64,000 bases of DNA, from positions 1,077,501-1,141,500 of the forward strand of contig NZ_CP076443.1 in NCBI RefSeq assembly GCF_018866345.1. Direction: 5' to 3'. This DNA is from Gemella sp. zg-570 (lineage in GTDB: Bacteria; Bacillota; Bacilli; Staphylococcales; Gemellaceae). The notes under the pieces are model-generated. The model searched no databases and was not told the origin of the DNA. It saw only the letters and a program-made list of their open reading frames with translations. A program made the position numbers and the translations under genes. Shown here one piece after another: positions 5,331-63,984 of this stretch; position 1 is the stretch's first letter; each line of letters starts with the position of its first letter.

Positions 5331-6407
5331 CTAATCTAAGTAACCTAATTTTTTAATTAATTCTGCTGTTTGTAATGATCCTCCAGCTGCTCCTCTCATA
5401 GTATTATGAGATAAAGCTACAAATTTATAATCAAATAGTGTATCTTCTCTTAGTCTACCCACAGAAATTTGCATACCTTTTTCATTATCTCTATCTAAAA
5501 CAGGTTGAGGGCGATTATCTTCTTCATAATATTTTATAAATGTTTCAGGTGATAAAGGTAAGTTATAGCTGCTAATTTCTGATTTGAAATTTTTTATTTT
5601 ATTTTTTATTACTTCTAAACCTGGATTTTCATTAAGATTAAATGATACGCAGGCTAAGTGTCCATCTAAAACTGGAACTCTTATACATTGAGCAGATAAT
5701 TTCATTGAATTATCCAATTCTATTTTTCCGTCTTCAATTTTCCCAAAAATTTTTAGAGGTTCTATTTCACTCTTCTCTTCTTCTCCACTTATAAATGGAA
5801 TAATATTTTCAACCATTTCAGGCCATTCTGCAAAAGTTTTTCCGCTACCAGATATTGCTTGATAAGTACAAATAGATGCTTCCTTAATTCCAAATTCTTT
5901 TAAAGCATGAAAAACAGGAACATAACTTTGTATTGAACAATTAGGTTTTACAACAATAAAACCTTTATTAGTTCCTAATCTTTTTCTTTGGTATGGAATT
6001 ATTTTTAAATGTTCTGCATTAATTTCTGGAATTATCATCGGAACATCATTTTTCATTCTGTTAGCTGAATTATTTGAAACAACAATAACTTCTTTTTTAG
6101 CATAATCTTCTTCTAATTTAATTAAAGATTGTTTATCTAAATTAATTGCACAAAAAACCATATCAACATCTTTTGCAACATTATCTATATCAAAAACATC
6201 ATATAAAATAAAATCCTTAGCATAATCAGGAAGATTTTGTTCTAATTTCCATCTGTCAGCCATTAATTCTGAATATAATTTACCAGCTGATTTTGATGAT
6301 GCTGCTAGTTTTACTACTTCAAAATATGGGTGATTTTCTAGTAAACTTATAAGCCTTTGACCTACCATACCAGTTGCACCCAAAACTGCTACTTTTGATT
6401 TTTTCAT
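5331..6407 (-). CDS. asd: Aspartate-semialdehyde dehydrogenase, archaeal/fungal-type
   Basis: This 358-residue enzyme reduces aspartyl phosphate to aspartate semialdehyde with NADPH, the branch point to lysine, threonine and methionine. The N-terminal nucleotide-binding loop is VLGATGMVGQ (residues 8-17). The catalytic cysteine is in KPNCS (Cys157), and the C-terminal part carries SHNTMRGAAGGS. The length and sequence style (ADRWKLEQNLP, LGTNKGFIVVKPNC) match the archaeal/fungal form of the family rather than the classical bacterial Asd. It is the last gene of the lysine operon, 22 bases after alr. The aspartokinase that should precede it in the pathway is not in the window. Confidence 0.95.
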   Translation of the reverse strand: MKKSKVAVLGATGMVGQRLISLLENHPYFEVVKLAASSKSAGKLYSELMADRWKLEQNLPDYAKDFILYDVFDIDNVAKDVDMVFCAINLDKQSLIKLEEDYAKKEVIVVSNNSANRMKNDVPMIIPEINAEHLKIIPYQRKRLGTNKGFIVVKPNCSIQSYVPVFHALKEFGIKEASICTYQAISGSGKTFAEWPEMVENIIPFISGEEEKSEIEPLKIFGKIEDGKIELDNSMKLSAQCIRVPVLDGHLACVSFNLNENPGLEVIKNKIKNFKSEISSYNLPLSPETFIKYYEEDNRPQPVLDRDNEKGMQISVGRLREDTLFDYKFVALSHNTMRGAAGGSLQTAELIKKLGYLD

Positions 6408-58352: not shown

Positions 58353-59657
58353 TTATAATATTTTTACACCGAGTGCCTGCAAATACTCTTTTAGCGTCTT
58401 ATTTACAAGCTCTTTGTTACTTGCAGTTGCTTCTAAATCAACCCTTATTTCTATATCTTTATGGTAGCTCTGCGTTAAAACTATATTGCTTAAAACACAA
58501 ATATTAGAAACTAAGCCGCAAAATTCTACTTCCTTATATTGACTTTTAGAAATATACTTAGCCAAGTCTATACTCCCAAAACTTTCTTTTTCAAAAATTC
58601 TTTTTGCTTGATTTAAATATTGATTTATATGACCATGTACCTGATGACCCTCTGTATCTTTTTTACAATGCTCAACAGGAATATGTTTTCCTTCTCTAGT
58701 CTCAAAATAATCTTCTTTATGAGTGTCTAATGTAAATATTATATCTTGATTTTTTTCTAAATAATCTTTTATTTTATTTTCTATTACTGCTTCTATTTTT
58801 TCAGCTTCTGAAAATCCTAAACTACCGTCGACAAAATCTTTTTGGTAATCAACAACTACCAATAATTTTTCACTTGTTTTATTTTTAATATTGTATTTAA
58901 TAAATATAAATAGAGTTAAGACAAAAATTATTGCAGATGAAATTATTAAAGATTCATCAAGCATTCTAATATTTCTATAATTTATTAATATTAAAATATT
59001 TACAATAATAATTAGCAATAAAAATGTAATTATAAATTTTAATTTAGCTTTTAATTCTAAGAAAAATTCTTTTTTACCTAGTTTCTTGTACAAAATATAT
59101 ATTAATAAACCTGTTGCTACTAAAAGAACTAATATTATACCGTATCTATGCAATAAAAAGAATACATGCTTCCAACTTGGACCCAATATATAACCCATAG
59201 TTATAAAAGTAAATACCCAGAGAATACCACCAAAAGTTGAATAAATATGAAATTTTTTAGCATCAATTCTTGAAATACCAGAAAAATAACCCAGTATATG
59301 TCTAACTCCTGGCAGATAATAAGCAATAATTATTACAATATTTCCATACTTATTAAAAAATTTATTGGCTTCTGTCATTCTTGACTTGGTTAAACCGATA
59401 TAAGAACCGTACTTGTCAATAGCCTTTGTACCTAATCTTCTTCCTATTTCATAAGATAACTGCATACCTATAATAGTTCCCAAGGAGCCAGAAATTATCA
59501 TAAATAAATAATTTGCGTGTCCGTAATAACCCATAACTCCAGCTAGAACCATCATTGTTTCTCCTGGTATAGGCAGAGCAACAAATTCTAATATTAATGA
59601 AACAAATAATATTAAATAAACATGTTCTGTTAATAATCTAAATAATGTTTCTTCCAT
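58353..59657 (-). CDS. DedA-family membrane protein fused to a nicotinamidase/isochorismatase-like hydrolase
   Basis: The protein of 434 residues has an N-terminal DedA (SNARE-associated) domain (about 1-190), with LPIPGETMMVLAG and the conserved Arg in YYLPGVRHILGYFSGIS. Two further membrane helices follow (about 205-255). From about 264 there is a cysteine-hydrolase domain: VVVDYQKDF carries the catalytic Asp (270), DTH (311-313) and EHC (330) are metal-site residues, the Lys is in FEKESFGS (357), and the nucleophile is Cys387 in SNICV. DedA proteins act in lipid carrier recycling; the hydrolase type deamidates nicotinamide or cleaves isochorismate. The start is ATG 59655-59657 after GGAGAGG with long 12-base spacing. 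One unbroken frame, no frameshift. Confidence 0.88.
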   Translation of the reverse strand: MEETLFRLLTEHVYLILFVSLILEFVALPIPGETMMVLAGVMGYYGHANYLFMIISGSLGTIIGMQLSYEIGRRLGTKAIDKYGSYIGLTKSRMTEANKFFNKYGNIVIIIAYYLPGVRHILGYFSGISRIDAKKFHIYSTFGGILWVFTFITMGYILGPSWKHVFFLLHRYGIILVLLVATGLLIYILYKKLGKKEFFLELKAKLKFIITFLLLIIIVNILILINYRNIRMLDESLIISSAIIFVLTLFIFIKYNIKNKTSEKLLVVVDYQKDFVDGSLGFSEAEKIEAVIENKIKDYLEKNQDIIFTLDTHKEDYFETREGKHIPVEHCKKDTEGHQVHGHINQYLNQAKRIFEKESFGSIDLAKYISKSQYKEVEFCGLVSNICVLSNIVLTQSYHKDIEIRVDLEATASNKELVNKTLKEYLQALGVKIL

Positions 59658-59913
59658 TAATTTGTTACACCTCTCCAAAGAATTTTACTGTCTTTAAAAA
59701 TTAAAATATTAACTTATTATATAATATTTAAAATTCAAAAGCAACCTTACTTGTTTACTAAAAATAGCTAAGCAAAATTTAAAAATTAATTTTTACTTTC
59801 TAAGTTATTTTATCTAATCAATTATAAATATACTTTAAATAAAAATATTCGAGCTTTATTAAGTAAAATTAAAAAAATTTATTTTTAGAAATCAAGCTGA
59901 TAAAAAAACAAAA

Positions 59914-62606: not shown

Positions 62607-63287
62607 TTATTTTAATTTCATTTTTAAAGTTTCTACTACTTCGGATATTTTGATTAATTCATCTATAAAATATTCAAAATTATCTTCCATATCATTTTTT
62701 CTTTTATTTATTATTTCTTCATAATCTATTTTTAATAATTCACATAATTCCCTACCTGTCATTATGTGTTCTTCATCGAAAACTCCCTTAAATCCTGATT
62801 TTATAACATCTTTATTTTCTTGGTTAAAACTGCATATATAATAATCTGTTGCAAAAGGTATTTTTGCTCCAAACTTCATTGAAAATTCTTCTAAATTTTC
62901 TTTTTCTGCCCTAGATTTTTTAGTATCAAAAGCATCACCATCTTTTAGTTCTATAACTTTACAAATTCTATTATTTTCTACTATAAATATCAATAAATCT
63001 GGTTCTTTATCTCTAAGTGGAGCTGAATATTTTTTAGATTTTTTAAAAACTTTTTTAGTACATAAATATACGCCATTATCTATACTAGAAATAATCGCTT
63101 GCTCTATAAAATAATCTATATCTTCTATTTTGTTAGATTTATCTACTATAATTCTTTCTAATTCAGTTCCATTGGAGATAACTGTCGCCTGTACTTTTGA
63201 TATTAATTTTCCTAATTCTTCATTTCCCAAAGTTCTAGTATAACCCGAATTACCGTCTGTTCGTCCTTTTGCATTTCTAATTTTCAT
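62607..63287 (-). CDS. Putative type II restriction endonuclease (PD-(D/E)XK)
   Basis: This protein of about 226 residues has the nuclease core PDLLIFI (about 95-101) followed by KVIELKDGDAFD, giving the Asp and Glu-x-Lys catalytic residues. GNSGYTRTLGNEELG is near the N terminus. The adjacent methyltransferase gene, overlapping by 11 bases or more, supports a restriction enzyme. The start is taken at ATG 63285-63287 after GGAG; two earlier in-frame ATG codons exist. Style recalls MboII-like enzymes, but I cannot confirm the recognition site. A DNA repair nuclease is less likely. Confidence 0.75.
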   Translation of the reverse strand: MKIRNAKGRTDGNSGYTRTLGNEELGKLISKVQATVISNGTELERIIVDKSNKIEDIDYFIEQAIISSIDNGVYLCTKKVFKKSKKYSAPLRDKEPDLLIFIVENNRICKVIELKDGDAFDTKKSRAEKENLEEFSMKFGAKIPFATDYYICSFNQENKDVIKSGFKGVFDEEHIMTGRELCELLKIDYEEIINKRKNDMEDNFEYFIDELIKISEVVETLKMKLK

Positions 63288-63984
63288 TTGTTTCATCTCC
63301 ATAAATTATATCACAACCTAAAAAATTTCTATTAGTATCCTTACAAGCAGTAAAAACAGAATATCCACCAGCTGCAAAATCTCCTACAATATCATTTTCT
63401 TCCGTTGTTGCAAGTATTAAATTTTTTTGTAATTCTATTGGTTTAGAGTGAGCATGACTTTTTATTATTTTTTCTTCCCATACATCTGGTATATTATGTA
63501 ATTTCCAAGTTGATTTAGCTTTTTTAGGTTCTTTTTGGATAACAATTAAATATTCACTTCTTCTTCTTGAGCGATATCCCATACCTATTTTTTTCTTATC
63601 CCAAGTTATCATATCTACTGTATGTAATTTCTTAACATTTAAAAACCATTTTTTTATTCCTTCGACTAAATGAAATTTATCAACCCATAAAAATAAATAA
63701 CCGTTAGGTAGTAAGACTCTATCTATATTTATTATAAATTTTTCAATTATATCATCAGTCATCTGAGGTAATTCAGAACGAACTTTCCCTCTACTAACAC
63801 CTTCATTTCCATAAGACATTTTATCTAAAATCCCCCTGTACTGAGGGTCAAAAAAAATTATTTTTAAAGTTTCATCTTCTACTAATTCTAACAAATCTAA
63901 TCCATTCATTTTATTTTTTTTATTTAAAAATTTTTCCTTATTGAATGATTTAATTTTTTCTACATCATCAAAAATTTCATTCAT
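63277..63984 (-). CDS. DNA adenine/cytosine-N4 methyltransferase of a type II system
   Basis: The 235-residue enzyme has motif IV as DPQY (in IIFFDPQYRGILDKMSYG) near residue 46, and the AdoMet-binding motif I late as DFAAGGYSVFTA near 200. This gives the beta order IV before I. The family usually reads DPPY or DPFxGSG at these sites, so both motifs are variants. HSKPIELQKNLI precedes motif I as usual. It methylates the host site to protect it from the neighbouring nuclease. The ATG overlaps a possible upstream stop (ATGAATGA), so another gene of the system may lie beyond the window edge. Confidence 0.85.
   Translation of the reverse strand: MNEIFDDVEKIKSFNKEKFLNKKNKMNGLDLLELVEDETLKIIFFDPQYRGILDKMSYGNEGVSRGKVRSELPQMTDDIIEKFIINIDRVLLPNGYLFLWVDKFHLVEGIKKWFLNVKKLHTVDMITWDKKKIGMGYRSRRRSEYLIVIQKEPKKAKSTWKLHNIPDVWEEKIIKSHAHSKPIELQKNLILATTEENDIVGDFAAGGYSVFTACKDTNRNFLGCDIIYGDETNEN

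Follow-up and report, generated by a model that had tools for sequence, protein, structure and literature searches.

Gemella probably carries its nicotinamidase (PncA) on the cytoplasmic face of the membrane, where the enzyme would be tethered by fusion to a DedA-family protein. According to this explanation, nicotinamide would be deamidated to nicotinate by the cysteine hydrolase at the C-terminus, and PncB, NadD, and NadE would then make NAD from the product. The DedA domain most likely still works as a lipid transporter or flippase-like protein and would thus be more than an anchor, and two fast-evolving helices in the linker would form a hairpin spacer that brings the chain back to the cytoplasm.

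Structure of the fusion gene

The gene was found in the window, i.e., the whole stretch of 64,000 nucleotides analyzed here, from a Gemella genome that consists of a single contig of 1.56 Mb. A single open reading frame (58353..59657, minus strand) runs from an ATG at 59657 to a stop at 58353 and encodes 434 amino acids. The first-pass annotation, which gave no strand, had read this region as one uninterrupted frame joining two domains and had named a stop between them as grounds for abandoning that reading; the frame is indeed continuous, lies on the minus strand, and has no internal stops in the window genome. A TTG at 59678 is a possible alternative start. The ATG is favored because the TTG overlaps the ribosome-binding sequence GGAGAGG, which was read directly at 59670..59676 (minus strand), 5' of the ATG.

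The DedA/VTT domain core (residues 30-156; 59190..59570, minus strand) contains Glu33, Tyr113, Arg119, His120, and Trp147 and matched Pfam PF09335 (VTT_dom) with 69.5 bits against a gathering cut-off of 33.9. It is followed by a linker (residues 197-262; 58872..59069, minus strand) that was delimited by hydropathy and the Gemella alignment and comprises a Lys-rich loop, two extra hydrophobic helices, and a basic stretch at the end. The remaining residues 263-434 (58356..58871, minus strand) were assigned to an isochorismatase-fold cysteine hydrolase, the predicted nicotinamidase, according to Pfam, conservation, and fold; the match to Isochorismatase (PF00857) covers residues 265-426 with 63.8 bits against a gathering cut-off of 27. 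Elsewhere in the window, a DNA methyltransferase-like frame and an adjoining 231-aa frame, which judged by eye may be its restriction partner, were seen at 62607-63984 on the minus strand.

Constraint on the two halves and membrane topology

Within Gemella, mean pairwise identity was 0.78 in the DedA core (residues 1-160), 0.68 in the hydrolase, and 0.34 in the linker, where only the hydrophobic pattern is retained. As the most conserved part of the fusion, the DedA half is not a decayed anchor, and, being under stronger constraint than the hydrolase, it most likely still functions.

The two additional helices reported between the domains in the first reading proved real. Hydropathy placed hydrophobic segments at centers 207-224 and 241-248 with a short loop between them, helices were predicted at 195-226 and 230-257, and Lys-rich stretches precede the first and follow the second. 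UptA is reported to be N-out (PMC11474028), and this orientation, combined with the positive-inside rule applied to the linker charges, would place the hydrolase in the cytoplasm. The prediction of fold and topology that had been proposed as a check gave a nicotinamidase fold and a charge pattern that suggests a cytoplasmic location of the hydrolase, as NAD salvage requires. Separately, the idea that the linker helices are remnants of PAP2 helices from a DedA-PAP2 ancestor was examined by profile comparison and found unsupported (probability 0.2%).

The divergence of the linker also bears on whether the two halves act together. We consider the chances evenly balanced that their joining is incidental, a refinement in which the DedA part only localizes PncA, each half does its usual work, and selection retains two uncoupled activities because both are needed and now come from one gene. 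The linker identity of 0.34 is consistent with this refinement, as are the Bacilli DedA relatives that carry PAP2 or no partner and the members of the same PncA family that are fused elsewhere to GNAT and Arr domains. On the other hand, the fusion persists in nearly all Gemellaceae despite changing gene neighbors, which hints at a benefit of the joining.

The hydrolase half resembles nicotinamidases

Returning to the tethered nicotinamidase, the residues on which the first-pass annotation had based its assignment (Asp270, Lys357, Cys387, and a metal site) are all present and conserved in an alignment of 40 relatives. Asp270, Cys387, and the metal-site residues Asp311, His313, and His330 are the same in all of them, and Lys357 reaches a conservation of at least 90%, so that the Asp/Lys/Cys triad and the Asp-His-His metal site expected of a PncA are complete. 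When aligned to a Pyrococcus nicotinamidase, the triad and metal residues fall on its known catalytic and metal-binding positions. AlphaFold2 gave a model of this half with high confidence (pLDDT of 83-97 in each block of ten residues from position 261 on), and its best nine fold matches in the PDB were all nicotinamidases (Z 23.0-24.4, rmsd 1.6-1.9, 164-170 residues), although sequence identity to solved nicotinamidases is 24-27%. The PncA proteins of B. subtilis (6a8l/5zn8), S. mutans (3s2s), S. pneumoniae (3o90-3o94), and P. horikoshii (1ilw) share the fold over 164-170 residues, together with the triad and the metal site of Asp-x-His plus His. Whereas these PncA proteins are stand-alone enzymes of about 180-210 residues, the Gemella hydrolase forms the C-terminal part of a membrane protein.

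No curated model names the hydrolase a nicotinamidase, since its score against the NCBIfam nicotinamidase model PRK11609 (19.2 bits) is far below the cut-off of 174; a homolog adjacent to pncB (L036) is also far from that cut-off, with 16.9 bits. Clostridia commonly have stand-alone homologs (37-49% identity), and pncB was directly downstream on the same strand in 28 of 73 such loci, which are not fully independent because many, or most, belong to Oscillospiraceae. The hydrolase tree gave no supported sister group for the Gemella sequences.

Two further fusions of this hydrolase family were observed. In Pseudoflavonifractor sp. 524-17, a GNAT acetyltransferase is fused N-terminally to the same hydrolase, and pncB comes after this gene (L044:5458-6513). 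In a genome of Bacillota, a PncA-family hydrolase is fused to an Arr rifampin ADP-ribosyltransferase (L138:1175-2140). Arr-type ADP-ribosyltransferases free nicotinamide from NAD, and the latter fusion thus joins an NAD-consuming type of enzyme to a hydrolase predicted to recycle nicotinamide.

NAD pathway genes would leave one step for the fusion

The fusion is the only PF00857 protein in the window genome. PncB, NadD, and NadE are present there, with pncB and nadE adjoining each other; across the genus, pncB occurs in all six genomes and nadD exceeds the cut-off in five of the six. NadA was not found in the window genome, nor was NadV, the sole PF04095 match being the PncB equivalog, and PnuC was not found in the genus. 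For its NAD, Gemella seems to rely on a supply of nicotinamide or nicotinate. Given the triad, the fold, the homologs next to pncB, the presence of PncB, NadD, and NadE, and the absence of NadA, PnuC, and a second PF00857 protein, the most straightforward interpretation has the fusion carrying out the nicotinamidase step, and the hydrolase is best explained as the only PncA of this organism, a predicted activity that agrees with the pathway partners expected of this enzyme. NAD salvage, one of two roles suggested in the first-pass annotation, is in this way backed as a prediction by genome content, homolog neighborhood, and fold; the other, processing of a lipid-linked product, gained no support.

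The isochorismatase superfamily is broad, and the hydrolase might instead act on another amide, such as an N-carbamoyl compound, biuret, or a lipid-linked amide. Structures of non-nicotinamidases from the superfamily match it at Z 20-22, and a stand-alone relative weakly matches a biuret amidohydrolase model (21.9 bits against a cut-off of 370). Nevertheless, we regard such a substrate as unlikely: nicotinamidases fill all nine top fold places, homologs adjoin pncB, and a genome with PncB, NadD, and NadE, and lacking NadA, would otherwise be left with no nicotinamidase.

By eye, no palindrome shared between the upstream regions of the fusion gene and pncB was seen that could serve as a common operator. 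Upstream of pncB, a 208-aa open reading frame (L097:151-774) has only a partial match to the voltage-gated chloride channel family and is possibly a fragment cut by the end of the locus or a decayed gene.

The DedA half belongs to a clade with Tyr in place of a UptA arginine

The first-pass annotation had spoken of a DedA transporter. Homology to DedA proteins stands; the transporter part is qualified by scores below the UptA equivalog cut-offs (93 against 250 bits for NF052604, and 81.7 against 300 bits for NF052605) and by the absence of one of two essential arginines. In B. subtilis UptA, a transporter of undecaprenyl phosphate (Und-P), Glu32, Arg112, Arg118, His119, and Trp146 have been tested, and Arg112 contributes to lipid-phosphate binding (PMC11474028). 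By position, Glu32, Arg118, His119, and Trp146 correspond to Glu33, Arg119, His120, and Trp147 of the fusion. The acidic residue of the first re-entrant helix (UptA Glu32, YghB Glu39) is thus kept as an invariant Glu33, whereas at the second re-entrant helix the fusion has Tyr113 and Arg119 in place of the two arginines (Arg112 and Arg118) of UptA, a protein without a fused enzyme. Homologs nearer to UptA (L142, L143, and L145) read CRFVPLLR or CRFVPLIR at this helix.

Beyond Gemella, this half is most similar to DedA-PAP2 fusions and solo DedAs from Bacilli, with up to 47% identity, and the DedA tree placed the Gemella group among them, with a backbone branching order that lacks resolution. 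Glu33, Tyr113, Arg119, His120, and Trp147 do not vary among the Gemella proteins and their DedA-PAP2 relatives. Many Bacilli have DedA-PAP2 fusions (L100-L119) in which a Tyr of the DedA part takes the place of UptA's first essential arginine, a feature of the clade. Because it is common to PAP2-fused and solo relatives, Tyr113 marks this DedA clade and not the fusion.

This placement weighs on a further reading, in which the DedA half imports or channels nicotinamide or nicotinate to the enzyme and so couples uptake to deamidation. The joining of a membrane protein to the first salvage enzyme, the absence of PnuC from the genus, and the replacement by Tyr113 of an arginine involved in binding the lipid phosphate in UptA (PMC11474028) would all fit vitamin import. 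Against it, the tyrosine also occurs in DedA-PAP2 fusions and in solo DedAs without PncA, so it is not linked to the fusion, and the lipid-site residues Glu33, Arg119, His120, and Trp147 are retained. We hold vitamin import to be very improbable, and we know of no DedA protein that carries a vitamin.

One other DedA protein is encoded in the window genome (L088), and PopT/DUF368 flippases were not found in the genus. Given that L088 keeps both arginines and the genus is without PopT/DUF368, this protein is a stronger candidate than the fused DedA for ordinary Und-P recycling.

The fusion is inherited across Gemellaceae

The fusion is genuine and has been passed on within Gemellaceae. The two-domain protein occurs in 14 of 15 Gemellaceae genomes with 58-70% identity to the window protein, and the genome without it is 72% complete. 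The frame is intact in 13 genomes (12 besides the window genome), including isolates and single-contig genomes. The remaining case is a Gemella MAG (66% complete; L002, the same locus as L083) whose linker has an in-frame TAG past the DedA domain, which may be an error or a genuine split. In this MAG, near 6134-6150, the frame was seen to restart at a TTG past the TAG, retaining the last helix and the hydrolase. In our genome collection, the protein was found in seven Gemella loci, and its closest relatives there are all from Gemella.

Beyond the family, no full-length match was obtained among 135 non-Gemellaceae genomes of the order, nor did one appear among the listed matches to the 397 further genomes of a class-wide sample; the phylum sample, queried with the hydrolase half, likewise gave none. 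Another protein considered as a further fusion (G004:C11, 398 aa) was rejected, as it is a different DedA-like protein. Asked whether the domain pair is confined to one genus, as the first reading had proposed to check, we therefore answer that it is nearly so: it spans two GTDB genera, both within Gemellaceae.

The genes upstream of the fusion vary by species (valS, gatB, acpP, secDF, and rsmG). The neighborhood hence offers no conserved clue to function; since these upstream genes are unrelated between species, the fusion gene has evidently been kept as one unit wherever it is located. An assembly or frameshift artefact, for which the internal TAG in the linker of one MAG would speak, can be set aside with near certainty, given the 13 intact genomes, and recurrence at such identity in so many genomes excludes a sequencing artefact.

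An apparently new partner among DedA fusions

Among COG0586 DedAs in approximately 6,000 genomes, 93% consist of the DedA domain only, and fusions to rhodanese and PAP2 are known, with another DedA subfamily fused to a pyridine nucleotide-disulfide oxidoreductase; the passages of this survey that were consulted make no mention of PF00857 (PMC10127716). P. aeruginosa PA4011 is also a DedA-PAP2 fusion (PMC12893004). The Bacilli DedA-PAP2 fusions (for example, L100, L104, L109, and L111) resemble the Gemella protein in having an N-terminal DedA, at most 47% identical to that of Gemella, and a C-terminal enzyme; their partner is a membrane PAP2 phosphatase, whereas the Gemella partner is a soluble hydrolase. 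Literature searches for DedA with isochorismatase and for Gemella with nicotinamidase, with subscription journals mostly outside their reach, returned nothing relevant. The first reading had named a widespread and already characterized fusion as grounds for refutation; the arrangement is neither widespread nor described in the literature searched, and the PF00857 hydrolase appears to be a new DedA fusion partner, found in one family only.

Implications for NAD salvage in Gemella

The only recognizable nicotinamidase of Gemella is predicted to be membrane-bound. There is a small chance that the DedA and nicotinamidase halves are coupled, for example with DedA sensing the state of the membrane or transporting a small molecule, which would put NAD salvage and the recycling of envelope lipids under joint control. 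If so, NAD salvage would be linked to envelope lipid traffic, two processes between which we know of no contact. Even if uncoupled, the hydrolase would extend the few partners reported so far in DedA fusions (PAP2, rhodanese, and pyridine nucleotide-disulfide oxidoreductase; PMC10127716) by a new one, and the fusion provides a natural test of the function of this DedA clade.
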